DNA from: an uncultured Pelagibacteraceae bacterium
Lineage (GTDB): Bacteria; Pseudomonadota; Alphaproteobacteria; Pelagibacterales; Pelagibacteraceae
Length of the DNA stretch: 64,000 bases
Direction of reading: 5' to 3'
Assembly: GCA_902525355.1 (NCBI GenBank)
Contig: CABZGO010000006.1
Span: 1 to 64,000, forward strand
Positions 29,221-56,593 of this stretch are shown here, one piece after another (position 1 is the stretch's first letter; each line of letters starts with the position of its first letter). The position numbers and the translations under genes are program-made. The notes under the pieces were generated by a model, which was not told the DNA's origin, searched no databases, and saw nothing but the letters and a program-made list of their open reading frames with translations.

Positions 29221-29222
29221 CT

Positions 29223-30089
29223 CTAGAAATTATTGAACTCTTTATATCTATTATATGTACACCAAGTTCTTTTCTTTTTAATTTTTTTTAGTTTTTTATG
29301 AGAATATCTATCTCTCCATTCATAATTACTATCAGGAGAAATACCTCGCCCAACCTCTGCAGCCATTGCACATTTTAAGTAAACAGGATTAAATGGTGTA
29401 CTAGAAGTCGGTTCTAAAAAAACAGAGTCTTTAAAATCAGGACAAGTAGGATCTTTATGATTATATAATGATGAGCCCAAATTATACTTGTCTCCCCCAT
29501 CAGGCCCTCCAATTATTGTTCCAGACTTGTGTGATTTTTTAGCTCCTTTTGTGCATGGCCAAGCAAATCCATTTACATGCATTAATTCATGTAAGGTAAT
29601 TAGAATTCTTTTATTTTTACTTGGGTTATGTTTACTTTTTAAAAAAATATATCCATGATGCACGCTCCCTTGTCCACCATCCCTATGCCCTACATCTACC
29701 CATGCAAAATACAATTTATTTGGACTATTAAATCCTAATTTTGTTAAATAAGCGTCAGGATAGTTCATTCCATAATTTCCTTTATATTGTTTATCAAATC
29801 TAACAAAAGAAATATCCATTTTTCCATCTTCCCTTAAGTCATACCTAAACTTCTGATTACCCTTTGTCATTTCAAACATTTTTTCATTTGCTTCTAATAA
29901 CTCTTTCTCCATTTTTCCATTGATGTCCCATTCTCTATCCTCGCTATCTTTGTTTAAGAGATAAATAAAATGAACTTGAGGTTCATTAGTAACATCTGGT
30001 TGATCTTTAAAATATCTTCCAGCTTTTTCATCTGATGAAAAAACGGCATTTGAAAATAGGGAAAATACTATAATTAATATTTTAATCAT
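29223..30089 (-). CDS. secreted putative zinc metalloprotease-like protein, paralogue B
   Basis: Signal peptide; HELMHVNGFAWPCTKGAKKSH; CPDFKDSVFLEPTSSTPFNP; shares KAGRYFKDQPDV/KPGRFFEDQPDV block with paralogue A. Confidence 0.7.
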   Translation of the reverse strand: MIKILIIVFSLFSNAVFSSDEKAGRYFKDQPDVTNEPQVHFIYLLNKDSEDREWDINGKMEKELLEANEKMFEMTKGNQKFRYDLREDGKMDISFVRFDKQYKGNYGMNYPDAYLTKLGFNSPNKLYFAWVDVGHRDGGQGSVHHGYIFLKSKHNPSKNKRILITLHELMHVNGFAWPCTKGAKKSHKSGTIIGGPDGGDKYNLGSSLYNHKDPTCPDFKDSVFLEPTSSTPFNPVYLKCAMAAEVGRGISPDSNYEWRDRYSHKKLKKIKKKRTWCTYNRYKEFNNF

Positions 30090-39526: not shown

Positions 39527-40308
39527 AGCATACTTGGAATAACTTTTCTTAAATCCATAGCTATTTTTGGAATTATATTTGAATATATAATTCCTTTACC
39601 AACTTTCTTGAGAGCCATTATTTTACCATCGGGTGAAATAATAACTGTATGCCCAAAAGTTTCTCTTTTAATCGTATTTTTTCCTGTTTGATTAGGTGCA
39701 AAAATATAGCAAAAGTTTTCAATTGCTCTTGCTTGTAATAAAGTTAACCAATGTCTTTGACCAGTTGTTTTAGTGAATGCAGATGGAACAGTGATAAAAC
39801 TTAGATTTCTTTTTGATAAGTTTCTATAAAGTTCTGGAAATCTTAAATCATAACAAATTGAAAGACCTATATTTCCCCAGGGTAATTTAGCCGATACTAA
39901 TTTTTTACCTGCCTTAAATACTTTGCTTTCTTTATGTTGTTCTTTTTTTGAAACTTTTACATCAAACATATTTATTTTATCATAATAAGTAATTATTTTA
40001 CCCTTAGGTCCAATAAGAATTGATCTGTTTCTTAATTTGCCTTTTTCTTTAATGCACATTGAGCCAAGAAGTATCCATTTCTTCTTTGTTTTAGCTATAA
40101 TTTTTACTTTTTTTATTATTGGATCATTTTTCATTTCATATGAATATTTAAATAAATTATTTTTGTCAGCAGACATCAATGAAGAAGTTTCTGGAGTAAT
40201 TATTAAGTCTGCTTTATTTACAATTGCTTGATATATATATTTTACAATATCTTTAAAATTTTTATTATAATCTTCCCCGCTAGACAATTGAATACAAGCT
40301 ACTTTCAT
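39523..40308 (-). CDS. carbon-nitrogen hydrolase (Nit-like amidase)
   Basis: ITPETSSLM (Glu), GLSICYDLRFPELYRNL (Cys), QRHWLTLLQARAIENFCYIFAPNQTG. Confidence 0.92.
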   Translation of the reverse strand: MKVACIQLSSGEDYNKNFKDIVKYIYQAIVNKADLIITPETSSLMSADKNNLFKYSYEMKNDPIIKKVKIIAKTKKKWILLGSMCIKEKGKLRNRSILIGPKGKIITYYDKINMFDVKVSKKEQHKESKVFKAGKKLVSAKLPWGNIGLSICYDLRFPELYRNLSKRNLSFITVPSAFTKTTGQRHWLTLLQARAIENFCYIFAPNQTGKNTIKRETFGHTVIISPDGKIMALKKVGKGIIYSNIIPKIAMDLRKVIPSML

Positions 40309-40982
40309 GTTTGAAATCCGTATTTTTTTTCTAAATACTTTATAATATTGTGAATTATAAATGTAATAAATAAATAAATTATTCCTGCTGTAATAAAAGC
40401 CTCAAAAGGTTTAAAAGTTAAAACATTTACTTTTCTAGCTTCACCCATTAAATCCATAATAGTTATAACACTTGCAAGTGAAGTTCCTTTAAGCATTAAT
40501 ATTATTTCATTCCCATATGCTGGAAGTGATTGTTTTATAGCTATTGGCAATTGAATTCTGTAAAAAGTTATTTTTTTTGTTACTCCTAAACTTTGAGCGG
40601 CTTCAATGTAACCTTTTTTAATTGTTTGAAATGCTGATCTTAGTATCTCAGACGTATAAGCTCCTGTATTTAAAGAAAATGCAATTATTGCACACCAATA
40701 TGGTTCCTTTATTATTACCCAAAAAAATGAATTTCTTAACAACTCTATATTAGCTAATCCATAATAAATTAAATATAATTGAACTAGTAATGGTGTTCCT
40801 CTAAAAAAATAAGAATATCCATAAGCAAAATTATTAATTATTGGATTTTTATTAATTCTTAAAATTGCAAAAATTAAACCTATTATTAATCCAAAAAACA
40901 TTGAAGCTACTAAGAGTTGAAGAGTGATAACTGCACCATTTAACAAGCCTGGAAAAATACCAATCATTAATTTTATATCCAT
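40305..40982 (-). CDS. polar amino-acid ABC transporter permease
   Basis: FRGTPLLVQLYLIYYG, YTSEILRSAFQTIKKGYIEAAQSLGVTKKITFYRIQLPIAIKQSLPAYGNE. Confidence 0.95.
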   Translation of the reverse strand: MDIKLMIGIFPGLLNGAVITLQLLVASMFFGLIIGLIFAILRINKNPIINNFAYGYSYFFRGTPLLVQLYLIYYGLANIELLRNSFFWVIIKEPYWCAIIAFSLNTGAYTSEILRSAFQTIKKGYIEAAQSLGVTKKITFYRIQLPIAIKQSLPAYGNEIILMLKGTSLASVITIMDLMGEARKVNVLTFKPFEAFITAGIIYLFITFIIHNIIKYLEKKYGFQT

Positions 40983-41674
40983 CAGTATCCTTTGCTATAT
41001 TTTATTTCTAATTTATTAATTAATTTCATACTTAGGAAAGTAAGCATTAAGTATAATACAGCTGCTACTGAATAAAAAAATAAAGGATCTCTAGTTGAGC
41101 CAGCAGCAATATAAGACTGCCTCATTATTTCTACTAATCCTGTAACAGAAATTAAAGAAGTATCTTTTAAAGTTATTTGCCAAACGTTACTGAGGTTTGG
41201 AATTGATAACCTCAACATTTGTGGGAAAATAATTTTGTAAAATTGAATATGTTTTTTTATACCCAAAACTTTTGAAGCCTCAAATTGACCTTTATCTATT
41301 GATAAAATTGCACCTCTAAAAACTTCAGTGGAATAGGCTCCAGAAATAATTCCAATTGCAAGAGCACCGGTTATAAATGCATTTATTTCAATATAACCAT
41401 CATACCCAAAAATTGAAGCCACATACATAGCAGCTCCTGTTCCTCCAAAAAATAACAAGTATATTACTAATAATTCTGGAACACCTCTAATAATAGTAGT
41501 GTAACAATTTCCAATTACATTTAGTGTTTTATTTTTAGATAATTTTAAAGGAGTAAATATTAAAGCAAATACAAATCCGATTGCCATTGCAGCAATAGAT
41601 ACAGCAATCGTAATTAGGGTTGCAAAAAACAGTTCGTCTCCCCAACCAGTATCTCCAAATGATAGAAGTTCCAT
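40982..41674 (-). CDS. polar amino-acid ABC transporter permease
   Basis: IIRGVPELLVIYLLFFG, YSTEVFRGAILSIDKGQFEASKVLGIKKHIQFYKIIFPQ. Confidence 0.95.
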   Translation of the reverse strand: MELLSFGDTGWGDELFFATLITIAVSIAAMAIGFVFALIFTPLKLSKNKTLNVIGNCYTTIIRGVPELLVIYLLFFGGTGAAMYVASIFGYDGYIEINAFITGALAIGIISGAYSTEVFRGAILSIDKGQFEASKVLGIKKHIQFYKIIFPQMLRLSIPNLSNVWQITLKDTSLISVTGLVEIMRQSYIAAGSTRDPLFFYSVAAVLYLMLTFLSMKLINKLEIKYSKGY

Positions 41675-41680
41675 AAAGAT

Positions 41681-41705
41681 TGGCGACTATATATTATAGT
41701 CGCCA
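41681..41705 (-). repeat. Perfect inverted repeat (stem-loop) between ABC binding-protein gene and permease gene
   Basis: TGGCGACTATA (41681-41691) / TATAGTCGCCA (41695-41705), 3-nt loop, no long U-tract. Confidence 0.8.
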
Positions 41706-41718
41706 TATCTAAAATTAA

Positions 41719-42558
41719 TTACATAGAAGCATCAAAGCCGAACCATTTAATGGCAATTCTGCTTATGTGCCCATCTTTTCTTGCTTTATCGATTGCTTTG
41801 TTAAAAGCTTTTAAGAGTTTAGTATCGTCTTTTCTAATACCTACCCCTACACCATTACCAAATGCACCACCAGAAAAAGTCGGTCCCACAAGTACAACCG
41901 CTTCACCAGATTTTTCTGCATAGTCAGTAAATGCTACCGCAGCAGCTAAAGCAACATCACATCTACCATTACTTAAATCAAGATTAACCTCATCTTGAGT
42001 TTTATAAGTTTTCAAATTTATTTTTCCAACATCACCAGATTCTAAGAAATTTTGGTGGATTGTTCCAATTTGAGTACAAACTGTTTTACCTGATAAAGCT
42101 GATGTTAAAGTTTTCATAGCTTTATTTACAGACGAACCACCTAAATTTAAATTCACAGCTTCTGGGGTATCTATTCCCTCTAAGTCTGAACCTTTCATGA
42201 CAGCCAAAGATGCAACTTCATCAGCATATCCTTGTGAAAAATTAATTGTTTTCATTCTTTCATCAGTGATTGACATTCCAGCCATTATAGCATCAAATTT
42301 TTTTGATGTTAAAGCTGGTATCATGCCATCCCAATCTTGCTCAACGATTTCACATTGCTGTCCTATGTATCTGCAAAGTGTCCATGCAAGTTCTACCTCA
42401 AATCCAATAAGTTTACCTGAAGCATCTTTTGAATTCCAGGGTGGGTATGCTCCCTCCGTTCCAATCTTAATTTTATCGGCATTAGAATTACTAATTAAAA
42501 ATAAAGATAACAAAACTGTTAAAAATATATTTTTTATTACATTCATTATTTCCTCCAT
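41719..42558 (-). CDS. amino-acid ABC transporter substrate-binding protein (family 3)
   Basis: Signal peptide; KIGTEGAYPPWNSKDASGKLIGFEVELAWTLCRYIGQQCEIVEQDWDGMIPALTSKKFDAIMAGMSITDERMKTINFS. Confidence 0.95.
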   Translation of the reverse strand: MEEIMNVIKNIFLTVLLSLFLISNSNADKIKIGTEGAYPPWNSKDASGKLIGFEVELAWTLCRYIGQQCEIVEQDWDGMIPALTSKKFDAIMAGMSITDERMKTINFSQGYADEVASLAVMKGSDLEGIDTPEAVNLNLGGSSVNKAMKTLTSALSGKTVCTQIGTIHQNFLESGDVGKINLKTYKTQDEVNLDLSNGRCDVALAAAVAFTDYAEKSGEAVVLVGPTFSGGAFGNGVGVGIRKDDTKLLKAFNKAIDKARKDGHISRIAIKWFGFDASM

Positions 42559-42604: not shown

Positions 42605-43648
42605 CTAGTGATTTATTGATGAAGAAAAATTCCAAGAACAATCAAAACTTGGTATATAAACTCTAGATAATTTAGTATTACCAAAATTTTCATTAAATAT
42701 GTTTAGCCAATTTTCTACTTGTTTAGGTTTTTTATCTTGGCTTCCAACCTGAGCTGTAATTACTCCTTTTGGCTTTAAAATTCTTACAAGTGAATTCATA
42801 TTTTTAGCAGCCAAATCTATACAGTATTGGTCATCATTTAAATCAACATATATTTGATCATATGTATCATCTTTAACTGATTTAATGCTTTCAAATGCGT
42901 CTCCCCAAATACATTTAACTGAATTTTTCTCTGTTGCTTTCTCACCAATTTTGCCTAGATGTTTATCACAAATCTCAACTACTTCAGGATCCAACTCATA
43001 CCAATCAATAAAACTAAAATTTTTTGATATACATTCTCTTGCTACACCTCCATCTCCACCACCTATAATTGCTGCTTTTTCTTTACTTGAATTTAAGTCA
43101 AGTCCTGATTTTACAAAAATAGAGCTATAAAGATATTCATCTTTTTCTGATACCTGAATTTCATTATCTATAAACAAGGCTTTTCCAAATTGTTCTAGTT
43201 CGAGTATCTCTATGTGTTGGCCTACTTTTGATTTAAAGTTTTCGATTACATTATTTACTACATACGATTTTTTTAAACCAGGTGAACTATAATTGTCATG
43301 ATAGAGGTCTACTGTATCTCTATTAAATTTTTTCTTAATTATATGAGTATGCTCTATTTCATCTTTAATGACATCCAAAGCAACAGAAGGTGAAATTTTT
43401 GCACATGTAAAAAAGTCAAAACTAATAATTCCTTTTTCGGGAAATGTATGGAAACTTATGTGGCTTTCCGCAAGAAGTGCAACTAAAGTAAAACCTTGTG
43501 GTTCAAACTTATATTTTGATATTTCTAATACAGTTACTTTTGCAATTTTTGCAATTTTGTAAACTAATTTTTCAAAAAAAACAGGATCATACTCTTTTTT
43601 AGCACCTATTATATCAAGTGTTATATGTTCACCAACTTTTGTAATCAT
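42605..43648 (-). CDS. fused S-adenosylmethionine decarboxylase (SpeD) - spermidine synthase-like (SpeE) protein
   Basis: N-terminal SpeD with pyruvoyl site AESHISFHTFPEKG; C-terminal SpeE-like ELEQFGKALFIDNEIQVSEKDEYLYSS, AIIGGGDGGVARECI, IYVDLNDD. Confidence 0.92.
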   Translation of the reverse strand: MITKVGEHITLDIIGAKKEYDPVFFEKLVYKIAKIAKVTVLEISKYKFEPQGFTLVALLAESHISFHTFPEKGIISFDFFTCAKISPSVALDVIKDEIEHTHIIKKKFNRDTVDLYHDNYSSPGLKKSYVVNNVIENFKSKVGQHIEILELEQFGKALFIDNEIQVSEKDEYLYSSIFVKSGLDLNSSKEKAAIIGGGDGGVARECISKNFSFIDWYELDPEVVEICDKHLGKIGEKATEKNSVKCIWGDAFESIKSVKDDTYDQIYVDLNDDQYCIDLAAKNMNSLVRILKPKGVITAQVGSQDKKPKQVENWLNIFNENFGNTKLSRVYIPSFDCSWNFSSSINH

Positions 43649-43649
43649 A

Positions 43650-44279
43650 CTAATCTCTTTTATACGTTTTACTTTTAGATAAAACTTTTTTCATTTGATT
43701 TAAACTTAAAAGTTTAGGTCGTCCTAAAACGAGAGATTTGATATATTGTTTAGCAAGATTGTCAACTTCTTCAGCTAGTTCAAATGCATCCGCAAGATTT
43801 TGTCCAAATGCAATCTGCCCATGATTTGCTATTAAACATGCCGACCTATTGGTCAGGGCTTTAAGGATATTTTTTGAAAGTTCTCTTGTTCCATATGTTG
43901 CATATTTTGCACATTTTATATCAGTGCCACCTGCTAAAGCGACCATGTAATGAAATGAAGGTATTTTTTTATTATGAGTTGATAAAGCAGTAGCGTTTGT
44001 AGAATGAGAATGAACTATTGCTTTTGCGTTTTTTTTTGAATTATATATATCTTGATGAAATCTCCATTCAGATGATGGTTTTTGATTCTCATCATATTCG
44101 CCATTAAGGTTTATATAAACAATATCTTTTTCCTTTAACGATGAATATTTTTGTCCTGAAGGTGTTATTAAAAAACCATTTTTGTATCTTAATGAAATAT
44201 TACCAGATCTTAATGCTGATAGTTTTTTATCATTAAGCATTTTGGCAAATTTAATGACTTCTTTTTTTGATGAATTCAT
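43650..44279 (-). CDS. class II aldolase/adducin family, FucA-like; candidate 5-methylthioribulose-1-phosphate aldolase (Ald2-type)
   Basis: SSEWRFHQDIY, AIVHSHSTNATALS, FHYMVALAGGTDIKCAKYATYGTRELS, ANHGQIA; 1 nt upstream of speD-speE on the same strand. Confidence 0.88.
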   Translation of the reverse strand: MNSSKKEVIKFAKMLNDKKLSALRSGNISLRYKNGFLITPSGQKYSSLKEKDIVYINLNGEYDENQKPSSEWRFHQDIYNSKKNAKAIVHSHSTNATALSTHNKKIPSFHYMVALAGGTDIKCAKYATYGTRELSKNILKALTNRSACLIANHGQIAFGQNLADAFELAEEVDNLAKQYIKSLVLGRPKLLSLNQMKKVLSKSKTYKRD

Positions 44280-44323
44280 TTTATTAAGTATACTAAATTT
44301 TTAATTTTTATTAGATTGAATTT

Positions 44324-45109
44324 ATGGCCTTTTTTCAACCAGATAAATTACCTAGTTTAATGGTAGCTCCAAATGGGGCAAGAAAAGTTAAGAAAGATCA
44401 CCCTGAGGTACCTTTAACAATTAAAGAAACAGTTGAAGTTGCTAAAAACTGTTTTAAGGCAGGAGCAGGGGCTATTCATCTACATGTAAGAAATGATAAA
44501 GGAGAACACGTTTTAGATGCTGGACTTTATAAAGAAGCGTTAAATGAATTAGAATATCAAGTTCCGAAAATGCATATTCAGGTCACTACAGAAGCAGTTG
44601 GAAAATATTCGCCAGAGGAAATGAGGAAACTTGCTTATGATGTTACTCCACCAGGAACATCAATTGGTATAGCTGAAATGATACCCTCAAGAAATCCCAC
44701 AGATGAAGATATAAAATTATACAGATATTTGACAGAAGCTGGAACTAAAATACAACATCTTTTATATAATCCAGACGATATAAGTTTGCTCGTTAATTTA
44801 CTAAATAAAGCTGAGATCCCTTCAGATGGTGCTTGGTGCTTGTTTGTGATTGGTCACTACTCAGGTAAAATTAGTTACCCAGAAAACATTCCAATGTTTC
44901 TAGAAAAAATGAGAGAGAATAATATTAATTTAGACTGGGCAATCTGTGCTTTTGCAAAAGAGGAAATATCCTGTCTAGAAAAAGCAATAAATCTAGGTGG
45001 TAAAATAAGAGTTGGGTTTGAAAATTCTTTATTTATGCCTAATGGTGAGATAGCCCCAAATAATCACTCAAAGATCAAAGCAGTAAATGAAATTTTTAAA
45101 TTATCTTAG
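44324..45109 (+). CDS. BKACE family (DUF849) 3-keto-5-aminohexanoate cleavage enzyme-like protein
   Basis: APNGARK, GAGAIHLHVRNDKGEHVLD (HxH zinc motif), GKIRVGFENSLFMPNGEIAPNN. Confidence 0.92.
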   Translation: MAFFQPDKLPSLMVAPNGARKVKKDHPEVPLTIKETVEVAKNCFKAGAGAIHLHVRNDKGEHVLDAGLYKEALNELEYQVPKMHIQVTTEAVGKYSPEEMRKLAYDVTPPGTSIGIAEMIPSRNPTDEDIKLYRYLTEAGTKIQHLLYNPDDISLLVNLLNKAEIPSDGAWCLFVIGHYSGKISYPENIPMFLEKMRENNINLDWAICAFAKEEISCLEKAINLGGKIRVGFENSLFMPNGEIAPNNHSKIKAVNEIFKLS

Positions 45110-46561
45110 AATTTCAGAATATTTTTTTAACAGTAAATTTATTTTATGATTTGATTTTGCTGAGCCCAAAATAAATCGATCGGGCCTTACAATAATTGCC
45201 TTCGAATTTATATTTTTTAAGTAGACTGACAATTTCTTAAATTTTTTTGAATTTATGAAAGGATATTTTTTTAAAGCCTTTGTTTTGATATTAGAAGACA
45301 ATATTAAAATTCCTTTTTTTGAAAAATTATCATCTAAACTTATATTTTTGTTTAATTTAAATTGAGGAAATATTTTTCCTCTATTTTTATCCCTTAGGTT
45401 TCCTAAGCCTTTTCCTAGTTTAGGTTTAATTGATTGCATCCTTTTAATACCTTGATTATCAGATTTTATATTGTCAGTTATTTGAATGGACTCAACAGCA
45501 TTTACAAATTCTCCCATCCTCATAGTGGTTTCAATATATTCTTTAACATTGAGAGATCTTTCTGATTGATATGTATTTAAAAGTGTTTCATCAAATTTAT
45601 TTCTTATACAATTGGCAATTTTCCATGCTAAATTTGATGCATCCCTTATCCCAGCACACATTCCTTGACCCATAAATGGAGGCATTAAATGAGCGGCATC
45701 ACCAGCTATAAAAACTCTACCTTTTCGCCATTTTCTAGCAATAGCAGATTCAAATGTATAAATTGTTTTTCTCTCAATAATTGCTTCACTTTTATTTAGC
45801 CAAGGTTTTAGAAAATTCCAAATATAATTTTCTGATAAAACTTTTTTATCACTATGATTTTTCTTAATTGCAAACTCCCATCTTCTACGTCTACCAACAT
45901 TTCTACAATATGTTGCTGGTTGTTTTGGATTTGAATATTGAATTGTTCTATCTGGTAAATTATTTTTTTTCTTTTTCAATATCAGATCAACTACTGCCCA
46001 TTTTTGAGTAAAACCTAAATTATCCATTTTTGTTTTCATTTGTTTTCTAGTTATAGAGTTGGCACCATCACAGCCAATTACATAATTTGACCTTATGAGA
46101 TGCTCATTGTGATTATTAATATTTAAATAAGTTATATCCACATGATTTTTTGAATTTTTAATTTTTATAACTTCGGAATTTTGTTCTATTGAGACTTTTG
46201 TATAATTTTTTAATTTTTTTCTAAGTTTTTTTTCTAGATCAGGTTGATGAAATCTATAACTTGGATACCATCCATTATCAGTAATTTTTTTTGGTCTTGG
46301 CCAATCTAATATTACTTTATTTTTAGAATTAACAAATTTAGTACCTTTATTAATTATAGTATGTTTCAAAAAATCTTTTGTAATTCCTATTGTTTGAAAT
46401 ACTCTCATTATTTCATCATCAAAATGAACTGCTCTAGGTAGTGGGTAAAAACTTTTTTCTTTATCGAGAATTAATATTGAAAAGTCATGCATTGCCAGAA
46501 GGTTTGCTAAGGTTCCACCTGTAGGTCCTAATCCTACTATTGTGACATCAAATTCTTTCAT
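45101..46561 (-). CDS. FAD-dependent aromatic monooxygenase (MhpA-like flavoprotein hydroxylase)
   Basis: VTIVGLGPTGGTLANLLAMHDFSILILDKE (GxGxxG), YVIGCDGANSITRK (DG), RVFIAGDAAHLMPPFMGQGMCAGIRDASNLAWKI (GD). Confidence 0.92.
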   Translation of the reverse strand: MKEFDVTIVGLGPTGGTLANLLAMHDFSILILDKEKSFYPLPRAVHFDDEIMRVFQTIGITKDFLKHTIINKGTKFVNSKNKVILDWPRPKKITDNGWYPSYRFHQPDLEKKLRKKLKNYTKVSIEQNSEVIKIKNSKNHVDITYLNINNHNEHLIRSNYVIGCDGANSITRKQMKTKMDNLGFTQKWAVVDLILKKKKNNLPDRTIQYSNPKQPATYCRNVGRRRRWEFAIKKNHSDKKVLSENYIWNFLKPWLNKSEAIIERKTIYTFESAIARKWRKGRVFIAGDAAHLMPPFMGQGMCAGIRDASNLAWKIANCIRNKFDETLLNTYQSERSLNVKEYIETTMRMGEFVNAVESIQITDNIKSDNQGIKRMQSIKPKLGKGLGNLRDKNRGKIFPQFKLNKNISLDDNFSKKGILILSSNIKTKALKKYPFINSKKFKKLSVYLKNINSKAIIVRPDRFILGSAKSNHKINLLLKKYSEILR

Positions 46562-46576
46562 TGATATTTTTAAAAA

Positions 46577-47548
46577 TTATTTTTTTTTTATATTTGAATA
46601 TAACCAAGGACAATCAATTAACAATGGAGCTTGTTTTCCTTGAGAAGCAGTTTCTAGTCTTTTATTTCTAAATTTCATTCTCTCATCATCAGGTAAATAA
46701 AGTCTCTCGTGCCCCCAAAAACTAGGTCCCTCAAATGTTTCAATTGGCTCCCATGTGTCCGGATTAATAATCCTCCCACCCCATCCATTTTCAATAAAAA
46801 ATCCTGAAGGTGTAATTGAATAAAATGAAGTCATATAATCATTGGTATGCCGTCCCATTGTATAAGCAATTGCATTATCCTTGTATTGTAACAAGTCATA
46901 ACCTTGACCTACATCGTCTAGGTTATTGTATTCAACCATAAAATGATGGAAACCAGTTCCACCTGAACCAAATAAAGCTAAACTATGATGTCTGCCGTTA
47001 ACATGAAAAAAGCATAAAGATATTGGAGTATGACTATAATCACTTATCTTGAAACCCATTACATCTCTGTAAAATGGAATTAAATCATCAATATTTTTAA
47101 CATGTACAACTGCATGTCCCATTCCTAGTGCCCCAGTCTTAAATCCTGAAATTGGCCTACCTGGTTTAAAAGGATCTGTATCTAACATAGGCTTATAAAC
47201 GAGTTCAATGCGATTACCTTGTGGGTCGTTAAAATATATTAAATCTTCAACAAAACGTTTGTCAGCAAAAGAAGTCTTTCCATGATTTACTACTATTTTA
47301 TTTTCTTCTAATTTATTTGCAAAAGTTTGAAGATCTTCCTTGTTCTCAACTTCCCATCCTAAAAATCCTAATCCATCTCCTTTTTCACCAGTTATTGTTA
47401 ACCTTTGTTTTTGGTCATCCATTCTAAAAGATAAAATTTCTTTTCCATGGTCTATCTGTTGCATACCAAGGTATTTTTGAGAATATTCTGACCAATCCTC
47501 AAATTTATCTGAATTAACTCCAATATAACTTAAAGCTTTTACCGCCAT
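46577..47548 (-). CDS. VOC-family type I extradiol ring-cleavage dioxygenase (BphC-like)
   Basis: Two VOC domains; putative Fe ligands in MGHAVVHV, GFHHFMVEY, GFFIENGWGG. Confidence 0.9.
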   Translation of the reverse strand: MAVKALSYIGVNSDKFEDWSEYSQKYLGMQQIDHGKEILSFRMDDQKQRLTITGEKGDGLGFLGWEVENKEDLQTFANKLEENKIVVNHGKTSFADKRFVEDLIYFNDPQGNRIELVYKPMLDTDPFKPGRPISGFKTGALGMGHAVVHVKNIDDLIPFYRDVMGFKISDYSHTPISLCFFHVNGRHHSLALFGSGGTGFHHFMVEYNNLDDVGQGYDLLQYKDNAIAYTMGRHTNDYMTSFYSITPSGFFIENGWGGRIINPDTWEPIETFEGPSFWGHERLYLPDDERMKFRNKRLETASQGKQAPLLIDCPWLYSNIKKK

Positions 47549-47573
47549 TTTTTTATTATACTTAATTTTGAAA

Positions 47574-47599
47574 GAGCCCGCTATGAAATTAGCGGGCTC
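47574..47599 (-). terminator. GC-rich stem-loop after TRAP binding-protein gene
   Basis: GAGCCCGCTA (47574-47583) / TAGCGGGCTC (47590-47599), 6-nt loop; minus-strand 3' flank begins TTTC, only a short T run. Confidence 0.75.
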
Positions 47600-47610
47600 G
47601 AATTTAACTA

Positions 47611-48624
47611 TTAACCATCTATTTTAGAAATTACTTCTCTTGCTCTTTTTAATACAGCATCTCCATCAAGACCTTTACCTTTCATTTCTGCTAACCAGTC
47701 AGATTCGATTGGAGCCAATATTTTTTTGTATTCAGCTAAAACTGAGTCTGATGCAACAGTTATCTCGTGTCCTGGAGTATTTTCTACTTGAACTCTCATC
47801 TTGGCATTCTGAGTATCAATTAAATTAGATGCCCAATCGCCAAACCATTGACCAGAATGTTTATCAACACATCCTTTTGCTGCTGAAGAAAGACCGTTAT
47901 ATTTCCCCTCATTCATTATTAGTCCAAATGTAGCGTTAGTAATGTTAACTTCTGTGTGATATTTAGTGACATCAAATAATCTAAATGAACCAATTGCAGT
48001 ATACGGGAACGGTGTTCCATCTATAACACCTTTATTTAAGGCTTCTGAAGTCCCTGGTGCTGGTACTTTAACTCCAGTTGCTCCTAAAGTTTTAAGAATA
48101 GTTCCCGCTATTTTGCTTGGAACTCTCATTTTTTTACCTTTAAAGTCTGCGGGCTCAACTACTTTAGTATCCTTCATATGGATTTGATATCCTGGGTTCG
48201 AATGAAGTCCTATCAATTTAATTCCTGCCATTTCTTTATCTAGGTAGCCTTCTTCAAAAAGAGTATTTAAAGCTCTAGATCCAGCTTTTGAAGTTTTGGT
48301 CAAGAATGGTAGTTCTACAACTGAACTTAATGGAAATTGACCACCAATATATCCAAGAACTGTCCAAGATATATCTGCAACACCTGAGGTTACTATATCA
48401 TATTGTTTGGGAGGACTTCCTAATACTCCTCCTGCATACATTTTTACGTTTAAAGCACCATTTGAACATTTGTTAACTTTATCTGCCCAAGCAGCTAAAA
48501 TTTTACTTGCTATAAATGCTTTTGGTGGTTCAAAAGTTGCTAACTTTAATTCTGTAGCTGATGCCGTGCTAATAATGCTTAAGGAAAAAATTCCTATAAC
48601 AAAACCAATTATTTTTTTTTTCAT
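47611..48624 (-). CDS. dctP: TRAP transporter solute-binding protein (DctP-like)
   Basis: Signal peptide; TELKLATFEPPKAFIASKILAAWADKVNKCSNGALNVKMYAGGVLGSPPKQYDIVTSGVADISW. Confidence 0.93.
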   Translation of the reverse strand: MKKKIIGFVIGIFSLSIISTASATELKLATFEPPKAFIASKILAAWADKVNKCSNGALNVKMYAGGVLGSPPKQYDIVTSGVADISWTVLGYIGGQFPLSSVVELPFLTKTSKAGSRALNTLFEEGYLDKEMAGIKLIGLHSNPGYQIHMKDTKVVEPADFKGKKMRVPSKIAGTILKTLGATGVKVPAPGTSEALNKGVIDGTPFPYTAIGSFRLFDVTKYHTEVNITNATFGLIMNEGKYNGLSSAAKGCVDKHSGQWFGDWASNLIDTQNAKMRVQVENTPGHEITVASDSVLAEYKKILAPIESDWLAEMKGKGLDGDAVLKRAREVISKIDG

Positions 48625-48674
48625 GTTAATCCCCTCTTATTATTAAATAATTAAAAGAAAGTTTAACTTGAAAA

Positions 48675-49526
48675 TTAGATTATTTCATCCTTAATTGTAT
48701 TAGATAAAGTGCCAATTTCCGTAATTTCTATTTCAACATTATCGCCAGGCCTCATAAATATTGGCGGATTTCTTTTAAACCCTACTCCACCTGGCGTACC
48801 AGTAACAAGCACATCACCAGCTCTCCAAGCCATCGCTTTAGAGACATAAGAAATTAAAATTGGAATATCAAAAATAAGCTGACTTAATTTTGCATTTTGC
48901 ATCACTTCACCATTCAATCTTGTTTCAATAGTTAGTTTTTTATAATCTTTAATATCTTCTGCTAAAACCATATGTGGACCAAAACTTCCTGTTTTTTCAA
49001 AGTTTTTACCCATTCCGAATTGTCTAGTATGTCTCTGCCATTCTCTGATTGTGCTTTCATTATAACAAGAGTACCCAATAATATTTTTTAAAGCATTCTC
49101 AGGTTTGATATGTTTGCCACCTTCGCCCATAATTACTGCCATTTCACCCTCAAAATCTAAACTTTGTGAGACAACGGGTCTTTGAATTGGTTGCAGGTGC
49201 GCAGTTTGACTCTCTGGAAATCGATGAAATATTACTGGATTTTCTTCTACTGTTCTGTTGGTTTCTTTAACATGTTCGCTATAATTTAAACCTACACAGA
49301 TAATTTTTCCAGGGTTTGGGATTAATGGTAAATACTCAATTTCTGAAATATTAATATTACCTGGATTGTTCTTTGCATAAGATTTTGCTTCTTCAATTCC
49401 TTGGTTTGAAATTAAATCTTTTAAAGAGTTTGAGTCCGAAACTTTTCCAGTCAGATCTGTAATTTTATCATCACTTATAACACCGAACTTATGTTGTTCA
49501 TTGTGTTTAAAAGAAATAAATTTCAT
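48675..49526 (-). CDS. fumarylacetoacetate hydrolase (FAH) family protein
   Basis: KIICVGLNYSEHVKET, DFEGEMAVIMGEGGKHIKPENAL, RMVAWRAGDVLVTGTPGGVG-type sequence (AMAWRAGDVLVTGTPGGVGFKR). Confidence 0.94.
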   Translation of the reverse strand: MKFISFKHNEQHKFGVISDDKITDLTGKVSDSNSLKDLISNQGIEEAKSYAKNNPGNINISEIEYLPLIPNPGKIICVGLNYSEHVKETNRTVEENPVIFHRFPESQTAHLQPIQRPVVSQSLDFEGEMAVIMGEGGKHIKPENALKNIIGYSCYNESTIREWQRHTRQFGMGKNFEKTGSFGPHMVLAEDIKDYKKLTIETRLNGEVMQNAKLSQLIFDIPILISYVSKAMAWRAGDVLVTGTPGGVGFKRNPPIFMRPGDNVEIEITEIGTLSNTIKDEII

Positions 49527-49593
49527 AATTAATACTTTCTATTTTTGAAACTACTTATATGTTAATGTTTAAATAATTTGAAGCAAGATTTTT

Positions 49594-50082
49594 ATGATTT
49601 CTAAAGTCAGTAGAGTTTTTGATTATTCAGCAATAGCTTCAGGTCTTATTTTATTTTTATTAGCTGTATTAACTTTTTGTGACGTATTTGGAAGACGGTT
49701 TTTAAACTCTCCAGTAACAGGTACAATAGAGTTAGTTGAAATAGGAATGGCATTAGTAGCTTTCCTTGCAATGCCAAGAGCATTTTATTTAAATGCTAAT
49801 GTTTCAGCAGATTTTATAAATAATTTAAATTTGGGTATATTTAAAACTTATTTAGTAATTTTAAAATTTGTTTTAATGATAACGATTATGTCTTTGATGG
49901 CATACTCAACTACTTTAACATCATATAAATTTATGAACAATCAAAGAGTAACGATTGACTTAGAGCTTTATTTTTATCCTTTTTATTTCATATGCTCTAT
50001 TGGGATGTGGTTGAGTGTATTTGCTATCATCATATGGTTTATTAAAACTATTTTTAAAAATAACTCATCTGAGAATTTATAA
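49594..50082 (+). CDS. dctQ: TRAP transporter small permease (DctQ-like)
   Basis: Four TM; RRFLNSPVTGTIELVEIGMALVAFLAMP. Confidence 0.92.
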   Translation: MISKVSRVFDYSAIASGLILFLLAVLTFCDVFGRRFLNSPVTGTIELVEIGMALVAFLAMPRAFYLNANVSADFINNLNLGIFKTYLVILKFVLMITIMSLMAYSTTLTSYKFMNNQRVTIDLELYFYPFYFICSIGMWLSVFAIIIWFIKTIFKNNSSENL

Positions 50083-51392
50083 TGGGACTAGAAGCTGTAA
50101 TTAATGGTGGATTGTCTTTTGCTGCTGTATTAATTTTGATGGTGTTAAATGTACCAATTGGAATTGCAATGTTGGTAGTTGGTTTTACTGGCTTTGCAAT
50201 GATTTCAGGATTTGATCCTGCAATATTTGTTTTAGGAACTGCTCCTTTTGATGCTGTCTCAAAATATACATTATCAGTGTTACCTTTATTTGTTCTAATG
50301 GGAAATCTTGCCAACAGTTCAAATTTATCAAGAAATTTATATGACGCAGCCTATGCAATAGTAGGTCATTACAAAGGTGGTTTAGCAATGTCTACGGTGG
50401 GAGCATGTGCGGGATTTGGAATGATTTGCGGATCTTCAATTGCAACGGCTGCAACGATGTCTCAAATGGCCGGCCCCGAAATGAGAAGACATGGTTATAG
50501 TGATGCATTAATAAGTGGATCAATTGCATCTGGCGGAACACTTGGAATAATAATTCCTCCTAGTGTTATTTTAGTGATATATGCTTATTTAACAGAACAA
50601 TCTGTTCAAGAATTATTCTTTGCAGCGCTTATACCTGGAATAATAGCGGTAGTTCTGTATATGATGGCTATTAGAATTTATCTTTTAATTTATCCGTCAC
50701 AAGGTGGTTATGGAACAAAAATGCCTTTGAAGGAACGAATTTCAGCATTATCAAAAGTTTTTCCAATTTTTTTAATATTTACAATTATGATGGGTGGACT
50801 TTATCTAGGTTTTTTCACAGCGACAGAAAGTGCTGCTGTAGGTGTAATATTAGTTTTAATATTTATTTTTTTTAGAGGTCAATTAAAATTAAGATTATTG
50901 AAAGATGCTTTATGGACCACTATAAAAACTGTTGGTTCTTTGTATTTAATTGTTATTGGTGCAAGTATATTTAATTATCTTATAACTGTCACACAATTAC
51001 CTTTTGCAGTTGTTGATTTTATAAATTATCTTGAGCTTACTCCATTAGGAATAATTTTAGTAATTTGTGCAATTTATTTAGTTCTTGGTACTGTAATGGA
51101 CTCTTTGGCAATGTTATTTTTAACTATTCCAGTATTTTATCCTGTAATTGTAGATGCTGGAATTGATCCAGTATGGTTTGGTATATTTGCAGTAATAGTT
51201 GTTGAATTTGGATTGATTTCACCTCCTGTAGGAATGAATTTATTTGTTATTAAAGGTGTAATGCAAAAAACACCTTTACAAACTATTTGGTTTGGGACAC
51301 TTCCATTTTTAATGACTGATGTAATTAGACTCGCTTTAATTATTTCTTTTCCTGCAATTTGTTTGTATTTGCCTAGTCTGATGGCTCAATAG
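50082..51392 (+). CDS. dctM: TRAP transporter large permease (DctM-like)
   Basis: GSSIATAATMSQMAGPEMRRHGYSDALISGSIASGGTLGIIIPPSVILVIYAYLTEQS. Confidence 0.95.
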   Translation: MGLEAVINGGLSFAAVLILMVLNVPIGIAMLVVGFTGFAMISGFDPAIFVLGTAPFDAVSKYTLSVLPLFVLMGNLANSSNLSRNLYDAAYAIVGHYKGGLAMSTVGACAGFGMICGSSIATAATMSQMAGPEMRRHGYSDALISGSIASGGTLGIIIPPSVILVIYAYLTEQSVQELFFAALIPGIIAVVLYMMAIRIYLLIYPSQGGYGTKMPLKERISALSKVFPIFLIFTIMMGGLYLGFFTATESAAVGVILVLIFIFFRGQLKLRLLKDALWTTIKTVGSLYLIVIGASIFNYLITVTQLPFAVVDFINYLELTPLGIILVICAIYLVLGTVMDSLAMLFLTIPVFYPVIVDAGIDPVWFGIFAVIVVEFGLISPPVGMNLFVIKGVMQKTPLQTIWFGTLPFLMTDVIRLALIISFPAICLYLPSLMAQ

Positions 51393-51717
51393 TATTTTTT
51401 ATTTTTTTTATATAATTAAAATAAATAAAGCCAAAAACTGCACCTACAATCATTAAAATATATTGATAAAATTTTAATAATACAAACACTATTGGCAGTT
51501 CTTTACCTGGATTCTGGGCATAAAAATTATCTGTACCATCTTTATATAAATCCATTGGACCTAAAGTTGCATACAAACCAAAGATAAATATATAAATACA
51601 GGGCAATAAAGAAATAATTAATAAAATTCTATTTCCACGAATTAATTTTATTAAATTTGCAGATACTCCGACTGAAACTAGACAAATTAGCGACAATATT
51701 AAAGGGTTCATTACCAA
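51373..51717 (-). CDS. hypothetical membrane protein
   Basis: 114 aa, about three TM; overlaps the upstream sulfatase gene start/stop on the same strand. Confidence 0.55.
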   Translation of the reverse strand: MVMNPLILSLICLVSVGVSANLIKLIRGNRILLIISLLPCIYIFIFGLYATLGPMDLYKDGTDNFYAQNPGKELPIVFVLLKFYQYILMIVGAVFGFIYFNYIKKIKNTIEPSD

Positions 51718-53294
51718 ACTCCTATCATAATTCCATCATCTTTTGTATAATCTCTTTCTTTTAAAACAAATTCATCTGTTGCTGCAACCCTATTTTTTCT
51801 ATCGGTAATTCTTTTAAGTAGAATATCCTTCATTTCATCAATAATTTTTTTATGATCTGGTGATTGTCCTAAATCATTGAATTCATCTGGATCATTTTTT
51901 AAATCAAATAATTGAGATGGGAAACCTTTGTAATAAATATACTTCCATCTATCATTTCTTATCATATATGCTCTTGCATCTGATGCTCCTATATTAAGAA
52001 TTTTTCTTGCTTCATTAAATGAGTAATCTATTTCACTAAACACACTGTTTTTCCAATTAGGGGCTTCATTTCCTCTTATAATTGGTAGCAATGATTGACC
52101 CTCAAGACGATGTTTGCTTACTTTACTATCTACAGATTCCAAAAAAGTTGGGAGTAAGTCTATAGCCTCCACAAACCTTTTTTCTCTTACTCCCCTGTTA
52201 TTATCTGACAAATTGCTTGGATCATAAATTATCATTGGAACTTTAACAATTTGTTCATGAAAAAGCTCTTTTTCTCCTAGCCAATGATCGCCCTGATAGT
52301 CACCATGATCTGATGTAAAAACTATCATTGTATTCTTCATATAATTTTTTTCTTTAAGAAAATTAAATAGTCTTCCAAGATTATCATCTATTTGCTTTAT
52401 CAATCCCATGTATCCTGAAAGAACAGTGTTTCTCACTTCTTCTCTTGAAAAAGTTTTTGAAATATTATTTTCCATGAAAGCTTTATAGACTGGATGATTT
52501 ATTTCTTTTTCAGCATCACTTCTATGAACTGGTAAAAATTGATTTGAGGAGTACATATTATGATAAGGGGCAGGAGCAATGTATGGCCAATGTGGTTTAA
52601 TATATGATAAATGTAAAAACCAAGCCCCCTCTCCACTTTCTTGAATAAATTCCATTGATCTATTTGTCATAAATGCAGTTTCAGAATGTTCTTCTTTAAC
52701 TCTTGCTGGTTTATTTGAATTTCTTAACCTCCACCCACTCAAAATATTTCCATTTTCATCCTCTGATGAATTTGCCCAACTATCCCAGGGATTATCACCC
52801 TCATATCCAAGTTTGTTTAACCAATCATTGTAAGATAGTTTTTTAGTTGAATTTTTAATGTGGTTATTAGGATGAAGTCCGTCATCTCTCTCATAAGGAT
52901 CAAATCCTGGTTCACTAACCGTCAGACCTATTTCTGTATCTTTTGAAATTCCAAGTCTATTCATTCCTTCTATATCGGGTCTCATATGTGTTTTACCAAC
53001 AACTCCAGTCCTAATTCCGGATTGCCTCAGATAATCTCCAATAGTTAATTCACCGATTGGTAAGGGTATTTGGTTCCAAGTTGATCCATGGCTAAATACT
53101 GTTCTTCCTGTATAATAAGATGCCCTTGATGGGCCACAAACAGGAGCTTGAACATAAGCCGACTCAAATATAACTCCTTTTTTTGCTAAACCGTCTATGT
53201 GAGGTGTTTTAAGGTGCGGATGACCATAACAAGAAAGATAATCAAATCTAAGTTGATCAGCCATTATAAATAAAATATTTTTAACTTTATTCAT
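51711..53294 (-). CDS. sulfatase (arylsulfatase/choline-sulfatase superfamily)
   Basis: NILFIMADQLRFDYLSCYGHPHLKTPHIDGLAKKG, APVCGPSRASYYTGR (C-x-P-S-R formylglycine signature), FTSDHGDYQGDHWLGEK. Confidence 0.93.
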   Translation of the reverse strand: MNKVKNILFIMADQLRFDYLSCYGHPHLKTPHIDGLAKKGVIFESAYVQAPVCGPSRASYYTGRTVFSHGSTWNQIPLPIGELTIGDYLRQSGIRTGVVGKTHMRPDIEGMNRLGISKDTEIGLTVSEPGFDPYERDDGLHPNNHIKNSTKKLSYNDWLNKLGYEGDNPWDSWANSSEDENGNILSGWRLRNSNKPARVKEEHSETAFMTNRSMEFIQESGEGAWFLHLSYIKPHWPYIAPAPYHNMYSSNQFLPVHRSDAEKEINHPVYKAFMENNISKTFSREEVRNTVLSGYMGLIKQIDDNLGRLFNFLKEKNYMKNTMIVFTSDHGDYQGDHWLGEKELFHEQIVKVPMIIYDPSNLSDNNRGVREKRFVEAIDLLPTFLESVDSKVSKHRLEGQSLLPIIRGNEAPNWKNSVFSEIDYSFNEARKILNIGASDARAYMIRNDRWKYIYYKGFPSQLFDLKNDPDEFNDLGQSPDHKKIIDEMKDILLKRITDRKNRVAATDEFVLKERDYTKDDGIMIGVW

Positions 53295-54367
53295 TATCTA
53301 TTAAACATTTGATTTATACCAACAGTTGATGCCTGACATATACCTTTCTCAGTAATTAAGCCTGTTACATATTTTGCTGGAGTTATGTCAAATGCCAAAT
53401 TCATCGATTTACTGTTTTCAGGATAGATTAAAACTTTCTTGATATTATTTTTATCGTCTTTTCCTTCTATATGGGATAGTTCCTCAGAATTTCTTTCTTC
53501 AATAGGTATCTTATTATAATCTTTAGTTTCCCAATCAATTGTGGAGCTTGGTAAAGCCACATAAAAGGGCACATTATTATCATGTGCTGCTAATGCTTTT
53601 AAATATGTACCAATTTTATTACAAACATCTCCAGTTGATAAAGTCCTGTCAGTTCCAACTATGCACATATCAACCTGACCTCTTTGCATTAAAATACCAC
53701 CAGTATTATCTGTAATAATTGTATTTGGTATACCCTCTTCATTTAATTCAAATGAAGTAAGATTTGCTCCTTGATTTCTTGGTCTTGTTTCATCGACCCA
53801 TACATGAATTGGTATTCCTTTTCTATGTGCTTGATAAATTGGTGATGTTGCTGTCCCCCAATCTATAGTTGCTAACCAACCTGCATTACAATGAGTTAAG
53901 ATATTAACAGTTTTATTGTCTTTATTAAAAATTTCTTGAATTATTTTAAGCCCATTAAATCCTATATTCTCACAAAATTTGACATCTTCATCACATATTA
54001 ATTTTGCTTCTTTTAATGCCACATCCAATAACTTATCAGACTTCACAAATGATAATTTATTATTCATTCTATGAATTGCCCATTGTAAGTTTATAGCTGT
54101 AGGTCTTGAATTAACTAATTCTTCTGAACTTTTTTTAATGAAATCTAAATTTTTATTTTCTTGTATTGCCAACACTATTCCATAAGCAGCAGTTACACCA
54201 ATAAGAGGTGCTCCTCTTACCTCCATAGTTTTTATTGCTTTTACTGCATCTTTTATTGTCTTCAAATCTTTAATAATAAACTGATGTGGAAGTTTGGTTT
54301 GATCAATTATTTTTACTACATTATTTTCATACCAAATTGTTCTATATTTTTTTCCATTTATTTTCAT
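53294..54367 (-). CDS. mtnA: S-methyl-5-thioribose-1-phosphate isomerase
   Basis: VRGAPLIGVTAAYG, LTHCNAGWLATIDWGTATSPIYQAHRKG, HVWVDETRPRNQGANLTSFEL, CIVGTDR, NKIGTYLKALAA, FDITPAKYVTGLITEKG. Confidence 0.95.
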   Translation of the reverse strand: MKINGKKYRTIWYENNVVKIIDQTKLPHQFIIKDLKTIKDAVKAIKTMEVRGAPLIGVTAAYGIVLAIQENKNLDFIKKSSEELVNSRPTAINLQWAIHRMNNKLSFVKSDKLLDVALKEAKLICDEDVKFCENIGFNGLKIIQEIFNKDNKTVNILTHCNAGWLATIDWGTATSPIYQAHRKGIPIHVWVDETRPRNQGANLTSFELNEEGIPNTIITDNTGGILMQRGQVDMCIVGTDRTLSTGDVCNKIGTYLKALAAHDNNVPFYVALPSSTIDWETKDYNKIPIEERNSEELSHIEGKDDKNNIKKVLIYPENSKSMNLAFDITPAKYVTGLITEKGICQASTVGINQMFNR

Positions 54368-55159
54368 TTAATTACCCCAAACCACAGGAAACCAATCCTT
54401 TCTCATTTTATCTCCTGAATTTAAATCTATTCCTTCAAAAGGTGGAGAAGTTTCTCCTTTTCTATCAATGTATCTTACATCGTCTCCAATAAATCTTGCA
54501 GAGAAAGCTTTACGGCTTTTTTTGTCACTATTTCCTGAAGATGAATGTAAAACTTTAAAATTAAATAATATTGCATCTCCTATATTCATCTCTGTACTAA
54601 AAATATTATTTTTATCTATATTTGGCACGTCCATAAAATTTTTGTTATTTCTATACCAAGAAGAGTCATTTGACCATTTGGTAGGCTTTACTAGCATTGG
54701 TAATTTATGGGATCCTTTCAAAACTTTCAGGCAGTTATCTTTTGACACATTATCTAATGGTATCCAGAAACTTCCTGTATCATTTCCATCTACACAATAA
54801 TAAGGAAGATCTTGATGCCATGGTGTTTCCATTTTTGTTCCAAGTTCCTTTAAGAAAATGTGTTCATGAAAAACTTGAATTTTACTGGATTGAGTTGATT
54901 GAGCAACAATTTCTGCTGCTGGAGAATTAAAAATAAAATCTTTAAATTCCTCAATTCTTTCCCAGTTACAATAATCTTCAAAAAATCTTCCTTCCTGTGG
55001 ATTTGAAATATTTTCTCTTCCGTATGGACTTGGGTTATTCAATACTTTCTGAAATCCGTTTTTAAGTTTATCAATCCAAGGTAAAAAAGCTTCTTTGATT
55101 AAAATTACACCATCATTTTTATAATTTGAAATTTGTATATCAGATAGTTTTACTGTCAC
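54368..55159 (-). CDS. phytanoyl-CoA dioxygenase (PhyH) family Fe(II)/2-oxoglutarate dioxygenase
   Basis: TPWHQDLPYYCVDGNDTGSFWIPLDNVSKDNCLKVLKGSHK (HxD), VLHSSSGNSDKKSRKAFSARF (distal His/Arg). Confidence 0.9.
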   Translation of the reverse strand: MTVKLSDIQISNYKNDGVILIKEAFLPWIDKLKNGFQKVLNNPSPYGRENISNPQEGRFFEDYCNWERIEEFKDFIFNSPAAEIVAQSTQSSKIQVFHEHIFLKELGTKMETPWHQDLPYYCVDGNDTGSFWIPLDNVSKDNCLKVLKGSHKLPMLVKPTKWSNDSSWYRNNKNFMDVPNIDKNNIFSTEMNIGDAILFNFKVLHSSSGNSDKKSRKAFSARFIGDDVRYIDRKGETSPPFEGIDLNSGDKMRKDWFPVVWGN

Positions 55160-56028
55160 TTATTTAAAACTCTTCCTGCTACTGTTTTTAGTTTATCTTT
55201 TGTTTTTTGTGATCTTTTTTCTGGATCAGTAATTATAGCAACATCTAAGCAATTATTTGTTGGGTCATCTGGGTCAATATGATTATCAAAATTATCAACA
55301 AGATTTTTAATCATACTTTTTGCTTTAGAGGCATTATCTAATAATACTTTTATCACTTGTTGGACATCAACATTTTCATGATCTGGATGCCAACAATCAT
55401 AATCAGTCACCATAGAGACAGATGCATATCTAATTTCTGCTTCTCTTGCTAATTTGGCTTCCGGCATATTTGTCATTCCAATCACATCGGCTTTCCATGA
55501 TCTGTAAAGATTCGACTCAGCCAATGTTGAAAATTGTGGACCTTCCATTACCACATAAGTTCCTCCTTTTTGATAATCTATTCCTTCTTTTTTAATTGCA
55601 TTCTCACATGCATTCATTAAACCCTTAGAAGTTGGGTGTGCCATTGATACATGAGCAACTATTTCCTCATCAAAAAAAGTTTTATTTCGAGCAAATGTTC
55701 TGTCTATAAATTGGTCAATAATAACAAATTTACCAGGAGGCAAATTTTCTTTTAAAGAACCAACCGCAGAGACAGAGACAATATCTGTTACACCCAATTG
55801 TTTTAATGAGTCGATGTTTGCCCTAAAATTTATCTTTGATGGTGATATAAAGTGCCCCCTACCATGTCGTGGTAAAAAATAAACTTCTTTATTTTTATAA
55901 ACTGTTTTTAAAATCTGATCTGATGGTTTTCCCCAAGGAGTGTTTAAATCTATTAATTCTCTATCTTTAAACTCCTCAACATCGTAAAGACCACTTCCTC
56001 CAATTATTGCTAATTTATTATTTGCCAT
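55156..56028 (-). CDS. mtnP: S-methyl-5'-thioadenosine phosphorylase
   Basis: LAIIGGSGLYDVEEF, FLPRHGRGHFISPSKINFRANI, GTYVVMEGPQFSTLAESNLYRSWKADVIGMTNMPEAKLAREAEI. Confidence 0.95.
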   Translation of the reverse strand: MANNKLAIIGGSGLYDVEEFKDRELIDLNTPWGKPSDQILKTVYKNKEVYFLPRHGRGHFISPSKINFRANIDSLKQLGVTDIVSVSAVGSLKENLPPGKFVIIDQFIDRTFARNKTFFDEEIVAHVSMAHPTSKGLMNACENAIKKEGIDYQKGGTYVVMEGPQFSTLAESNLYRSWKADVIGMTNMPEAKLAREAEIRYASVSMVTDYDCWHPDHENVDVQQVIKVLLDNASKAKSMIKNLVDNFDNHIDPDDPTNNCLDVAIITDPEKRSQKTKDKLKTVAGRVLNK

Positions 56029-56065: not shown

Positions 56066-56593
56066 ATGGATTTAAAAGATTATATTCGCTCAATTAAAGA
56101 TTATCCTAAAAAGGGTATTTTATTTAGAGATATAACTACTTTAATAAAAAATGAGACTGCTTTTGAGGAAACAATTAATCAAATCGTTGAGAGATCCAAA
56201 AAATTTAAGGTAGATAAGATAGCTGCAATTGAGTCACGTGGTTTTGTATTTGGATCTGCTGTTTCCTACATATTAAAAAAACCATTTATAATGCTAAGAA
56301 AAAAAAACAAACTTCCTGCTGATGTGCACTCAATTGATTTTATACTTGAATATGGAACAGCAACAATAGAGGTTCATAAAGACTCAATTTCAGAAAATGA
56401 TTCTGTTCTTATAATAGATGATTTGATAGCAACAGGAGGAACCGCAGAAGCTGCAGCTAAACTTATAGAAATTTCTGACGGAAATGTTGCAGCTTTTATA
56501 TTTGTCATAAATCTTTTTGACTTAGGCGGTTGTGATAATCTTATAAAAAAGGGATATAAAGTTGAAAATTTAATGGATTTTCCAGGTCATTAG
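56066..56593 (+). CDS. apt: adenine phosphoribosyltransferase
   Basis: IRSIKDYPKKGILFRDITTLI, ESRGFVFGSAVSYIL, VLIIDDLIATGGTAEAAAKL. Confidence 0.96.
   Translation: MDLKDYIRSIKDYPKKGILFRDITTLIKNETAFEETINQIVERSKKFKVDKIAAIESRGFVFGSAVSYILKKPFIMLRKKNKLPADVHSIDFILEYGTATIEVHKDSISENDSVLIIDDLIATGGTAEAAAKLIEISDGNVAAFIFVINLFDLGGCDNLIKKGYKVENLMDFPGH

Follow-up and report, generated by a model that had tools for sequence, protein, structure and literature searches.

The locus lies within a window of 64,000 nucleotides, the whole stretch of DNA analyzed, from a SAR11/Pelagibacter genome of 1.18 Mb with an estimated completeness of 80.8%. The relevant genes and features are as follows.

40305-42558, minus strand: basic-amino-acid-type ABC transporter (binding protein and two permeases), downstream of speDE (TIGR01096 236 bits, below the cut-off of 256)
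42605-43648, minus strand: speDE, fused S-adenosylmethionine decarboxylase-spermidine synthase, 347 aa (PF02675, PF17284 and PF01564)
43650-44279, minus strand: ald, FucA/Ald2-type class II aldolase, 209 aa (PF00596, 170 bits)
44324-51392, no strand assigned: inserted block encoding BKACE, an MhpA-like hydroxylase, an extradiol dioxygenase, a TRAP binding protein, an FAH hydrolase and TRAP permeases
51373-51717, minus strand: open reading frame of 114 aa, small putative membrane protein, with a homologue between mtnA and ald in loci L054-L056
51711-53294, minus strand: sulfatase-family gene directly after mtnA (PF00884, 166 bits)
53294-54367, minus strand: mtnA, 5-methylthioribose-1-phosphate isomerase (TIGR00512 420 bits, cut-off 279)
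54368-55159, minus strand: PhyH-family 2OG oxygenase between mtnP and mtnA (PF05721, 83 bits)
55156-56028, minus strand: mtnP, MTA phosphorylase (TIGR01694 307 bits, cut-off 275; NF006492 442 bits, cut-off 437)
56066-56593, plus strand: apt, adenine phosphoribosyltransferase-like, divergent from mtnP and named from reading of the sequence

The speDE product scored above the TIGR03330 cut-off, and Pfam placed its SpeD domain (PF02675) at residues 8-110 and those of spermidine synthase at residues 117-341. A first-pass annotation of this DNA had placed the end of a class II aldolase 1 nt before the SpeD-SpeE fusion, and the coordinates agree, a single nucleotide (43649) separating the aldolase stop codon from the ATG of speDE. 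The same annotation had noted mtnP and mtnA in the window, and both exceed the curated cut-offs of their families. The best aldolase matches in named genomes were to Pelagibacteraceae single cells.

The order of genes in relatives is apt (divergent), mtnP, mtnA, ald, speDE and then the ABC transporter. This transporter lies downstream of speDE in nearly all of them, and apt adjoins either mtnP or a nucleosidase that replaces the module (see below) in most. Among Pelagibacter loci picked by similarity to the window's aldolase, with some genomes counted twice, ald and speDE were found on the same strand in all 102 loci holding both, spaced by -7 to +23 nt and mostly by 0 or 1; mtnA and ald were separated by no more than 2 nt, or overlapped, in 56 of 76 loci, and in 40 of 66 mtnP overlapped mtnA (gap of -4 or -1 nt). 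Given that ald and speDE share one strand and so narrow a range of spacing in every locus, their adjacency is not the result of chance. The same order recurs in one further genus of this family (G158 and L252), and the coupling of mtnP, mtnA, ald and speDE is ancestral.

In the window, mtnP and mtnA are on the same strand as ald but ∼9 kb upstream of it, whereas in most relatives they abut ald. Between mtnA and ald lie the sulfatase gene, the 114-aa open reading frame and then the BKACE/hydroxylase/dioxygenase/TRAP/FAH block. In L054-L056, the mtnA-ald interval holds the small open reading frame only, the sulfatase gene being absent from it, and this spacer matches the 51373-51717 segment of the window (72% over 319 nt). 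The block is present in L033-L053 and absent from L054-L112, with the exception of L087 and L092. Given that tight mtnA-ald linkage is widespread, the simpler reading is that the operon was split in the window's clade by insertion rather than by loss. The block seen in the window, with its sulfatase, TRAP, FAH, dioxygenase, hydroxylase and BKACE genes, was also observed in L132 (G023:C7:500-20400), between mtnA and an aldolase/short-chain-dehydrogenase (SDR) fusion in a strain that lacks ald; thus, the block and the type of aldolase vary independently. The divergent ald and BKACE genes are separated by 44 nt (44280-44323); conservation of this gap is high among members of the split clade, where it probably carries the start signals for ald-speDE. 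A promoter search of this gap returned one match, on the opposite strand and within the expectation from shuffled sequence, and none stands out.

Several neighboring genes deserve separate mention. The 114-aa open reading frame, to which a family search assigned no family, accompanies mtnA and ald in some SAR11, and the putative membrane protein could be a transporter or an anchor for the pathway. Throughout the window's clade, the PhyH-family oxygenase gene lies between mtnP and mtnA; other SAR11 have a ∼60% identical homologue beside or after the cluster's artM, and this gene appears to move within the locus. At 28231-30089, the window encodes in tandem two related proteins that are predicted to be secreted and that carry HExxH-like motifs (ILHEVLHAMGG and LITLHELMHVNGF); they are possibly metalloproteases.

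The distribution of the module was established in 37 Pelagibacter genomes. All four of mtnP, mtnA, ald and speDE are present in 22. A further four (G013, G023, G024 and G027) have mtnP, mtnA and speDE without ald, and exactly these four carry a 677-aa aldolase/SDR fusion, encoded on the opposite strand between mtnA and speDE; ald and the fusion were never found together. In G012, a complete genome, and in G019, mtnP, mtnA and ald are all missing, and a 175-aa nucleosidase-family protein is encoded between apt and speDE instead. Four partial cases remain (G001, G005, G031 and G035), which are explicable by contig ends or by the missing parts of partial assemblies, and five genomes that lack the whole set, at 55-79% completeness, may simply be partial. 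An aldolase, whether ald or the fusion, accompanies mtnA in 27 of 28 mtnA-positive genomes and is present in 2 of the 9 that are mtnA-negative (Fisher p = 2.6e-5, a value that ignores relatedness).

Similar arrangements occur beyond the genus. The fusion directly follows mtnP-mtnA in an order-level relative (G041), and an open reading frame that reads like agmatine deiminase comes after it (L134:8244-9383), a possible second link of the module to polyamine metabolism. Across 89 alphaproteobacterial mtnA loci, for which flanks of 1.5 kb (first 29 loci) or 3.5 kb (the rest) were inspected, a FucA-like aldolase was located nearby in 39 and an aldolase/SDR fusion in 17. In Ruegeria sp. THAF33, mtnA is followed by an annotated bifunctional aldolase/short-chain dehydrogenase; at the Azospirillum, Mariluticola and Ensifer mtnA plasmid loci, no aldolase adjoins mtnA. 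That a distantly related aldolase has been swapped in at the same position is strong evidence for an aldol cleavage following MtnA. The mtnA-linked SAR11 fusion scored 442 bits against RhaD_aldol-ADH, below the cut-off of 568, and exceeded the cut-off of PRK08324.1-6.

To place the aldolase within its superfamily, family scores, a tree of 83 class II aldolases and an alignment of active-site residues were considered. The best-scoring models were those of FucA, at 213, 201 and 194 bits, all under their curated cut-offs, and the MtnB model TIGR03328 gave 77 bits against a cut-off of 137; the enzyme had been described earlier as FucA-like rather than MtnB-like, which these scores uphold. The closest solved relative is E. 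coli FucA, at about 45% identity, and at this distance a predicted structure would be uninformative on substrate. In the tree, from which one sequence on a very long branch (L217_fus, a probable extraction error) was disregarded, SAR11 ald groups with E. coli FucA, with E. coli Ald2 (represented by L183:6147-6788) and with aldolases linked to mtnA elsewhere in the Alphaproteobacteria. This group lies apart from MtnB, AraD and RhaD, true MtnB proteins form a clade of their own (100/100), and the FucA/Ald2/mtnA-linked clade also takes in aldolases that have a sugar kinase in their genomic context (L151-L153). Given that E. coli FucA and Ald2 are sisters within the clade that holds SAR11 ald, tree and sequence alone cannot separate the substrates, and a choice between FucA and Ald2 by hidden Markov model or tree alone was therefore rejected. 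Of the FucA residues compared, E73, H92, H94, Y113, H155 and Y209 are conserved in SAR11 ald and F206 is not. Glu73 was rejected as a discriminator between FucA and MtnB, the alignment showing that MtnB has it too. By contrast, Tyr113 and Tyr209 are present in SAR11 ald and absent in MtnB. We infer that it is the genomic context, not the tree, that points to the substrate of ald.

MTA is a toxic byproduct of spermidine synthesis. On the evidence above, it is very likely that ald supplies the aldolase of a DHAP shunt of the MtnP type, by which MTA arising from the co-encoded spermidine synthase is removed. Here, SpeDE, the proposed MTA producer of the locus, would decarboxylate S-adenosylmethionine and transfer the aminopropyl group to form spermidine, with release of MTA; MtnP would cleave MTA phosphorolytically to adenine and 5-methylthioribose-1-phosphate; and MtnA would convert the latter to 5-methylthioribulose-1-phosphate. 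Ald, as an Ald2-type enzyme, would then yield DHAP, which would enter glycolysis, and 2-methylthioacetaldehyde, and Apt would recycle the adenine. The same enzymes may convert 5'-deoxyadenosine from radical SAM enzymes to DHAP and acetaldehyde, and the proposed substrates of ald are accordingly worded as 5-methylthioribulose-1-phosphate and also 5-deoxyribulose-1-phosphate. The activities of SpeDE, MtnP and MtnA are predicted from family assignment, and that of Ald from context and from homology to Ald2 of R. palustris (PMC5893883) and E. coli (PMC10986504); the substrate of ald, the direction of its reaction and the fate of the aldehyde are presumed. The module in the window encodes no aldehyde-handling enzyme. 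In other genomes, a candidate for this role is the SDR domain of the fusion that replaces ald, which may oxidize 2-methylthioacetaldehyde by analogy with RhaEW, and a lone nucleosidase would release adenine and presumably leave methylthioribose unused. The earlier proposal that an MTA producer and a scavenger of MTA carbon are encoded together is thus strengthened by the mtnP-mtnA-ald-speDE operon of most relatives and by the complementary occurrence of ald and the fusion in 27 of 28 mtnA genomes. A wider reading is slightly favored: that SAR11 and other Alphaproteobacteria possess a second form of the shunt, in which the fusion would cleave 5-methylthioribulose-1-phosphate and oxidize 2-methylthioacetaldehyde to (methylthio)acetate, and that in Pelagibacter the apt-speDE site accepts exchangeable modules for MTA disposal (mtnP-mtnA-ald, mtnP-mtnA with the fusion, or a lone nucleosidase).

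The likeness to solved E. coli FucA, the high scores from FucA models and the related aldolases beside FGGY kinases in plasmids would all suit a true L-fuculose-1-phosphate (or other sugar-1-phosphate) aldolase of deoxyhexose or pentose catabolism, whose linkage to polyamine genes would be accidental. This is judged improbable: the adjacency to mtnA and speDE is kept across the genus and also in a second one, and ald is interchangeable with another aldolase beside mtnA. Moreover, a fucose pathway is unlikely because a search for FGGY kinases in the window's genome, which is 81% complete, recovered the glycerol kinase GlpK (676 bits, cut-off 590) and no other; no FGGY kinase was found in 16 ald-bearing genomes, one of them 96% complete. 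We consider it very improbable that the module serves mainly 5'-deoxyadenosine, the radical SAM byproduct, and not MTA, as proposed for Bacillus thuringiensis. The enzymes of the shunt are described as dual-purpose, acting on both MTA and 5'-deoxyadenosine (PMC10986504), and 5-deoxyribose salvage comprises a kinase, an isomerase and an aldolase (PMC6079011); however, the tight partner of the module is speDE, a predicted MTA producer, and mtnP is above cut-off as an MTA phosphorylase. This proposal also overlaps with the MTA shunt favored here, as both substrates could be used.

It is barely credible that the open reading frame encodes a divergent MtnB dehydratase feeding universal methionine salvage. 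Membership of the same superfamily and the weak TIGR03328 match are compatible with such an enzyme, but the score is far under the cut-off, the true MtnB proteins are set apart in their own clade and the two tyrosine residues distinguish ald from MtnB; the phylogeny thus leaves the enzyme with the FucA/Ald2 mtnA-linked group, not clustering with MtnB. The first-pass annotation had allowed for a complete mtnBCD route elsewhere in the genome; for mtnB and mtnD, none was found, with a match to MtnD/ARD (PF03079) in 0 of 61 relatives and MtnB above cut-off likewise in 0 of 61. Of these genomes, 18 have a completeness of 90% or more. The MtnB model matched 4 of 96 class-wide, and no MtnC, MtnK or RuBisCO-like MtnW was recognized in the window's lists of open reading frames.

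SAR11 are the most abundant bacteria of the ocean, dominant in its surface waters and dependent on reduced sulfur. If the MTA shunt operates as proposed, a route to DHAP and a methylthio aldehyde would return carbon to these cells for each spermidine made, and the reduced-sulfur product would be kept, released or made volatile. Existing annotations probably mislabel both aldolases, ald and the fusion, as enzymes of fuculose or rhamnulose. Direct, testable predictions follow from the mtnA-linked fusion and from the exchange of modules at a single site. In addition, SAR11 SpeE has been proposed to run also in reverse, degrading spermidine (PMC8437039). Given that the reverse reaction needs MTA and that the same operon encodes its predicted removal, the module would work against reverse SpeE, and the two ideas are jointly testable.

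The Pelagibacter SpeD-SpeE fusion is itself already known (Green et al. 2011, as cited in PMC8437039), and its operon link to MTA salvage is unmentioned in the literature searched. Likewise, in that literature, which left out the main genome surveys of the shunt, neither a SAR11 shunt nor its speDE operon nor the mtnA-linked aldolase/SDR fusion is described. The DHAP shunt is a known but sparsely studied route. MtnP-MtnA-Ald2 has been demonstrated in R. palustris, where it works aerobically (PMC5893883), and the R. rubrum/R. palustris shunt resembles the SAR11 module in its MTA phosphorylase, methylthioribose-1-phosphate isomerase and class II aldolase, as well as in belonging to the Alphaproteobacteria. 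It differs from the SAR11 module, in which speDE, for the MTA producer, shares an operon with the genes for these three enzymes; the tree was without the R. palustris and R. rubrum aldolases by name. The mtnK-mtnA-ald2 shunt of E. coli (PMC10986504, PMC12632272) shares MtnA and a FucA-like Ald2, but uses the Pfs nucleosidase and MtnK instead of MtnP (PMC10986504) and has no linkage to spermidine synthesis, and in the tree E. coli FucA, not SAR11 ald, is the nearer relative of its Ald2. Given the use of Pfs and MtnK in E. coli, the R. rubrum/R. palustris form is the closer precedent. In summary, the data support assignment of the SAR11 module to the MtnP-type DHAP shunt, with a coupling to the MTA producer that is apparently unreported in the literature searched. 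The fusion that replaces ald in some SAR11, and lies beside mtnA in other Alphaproteobacteria, has the domain architecture of RhaEW, a bifunctional aldolase/lactaldehyde dehydrogenase that oxidizes lactaldehyde (PMC3870299). However, the genes for RhaEW are reported to lie in rhamnose loci without exception (PMC3870299), whereas the SAR11 fusion is linked to mtnA, and the aldolase/SDR form in these relatives is probably a new variant of the shunt.
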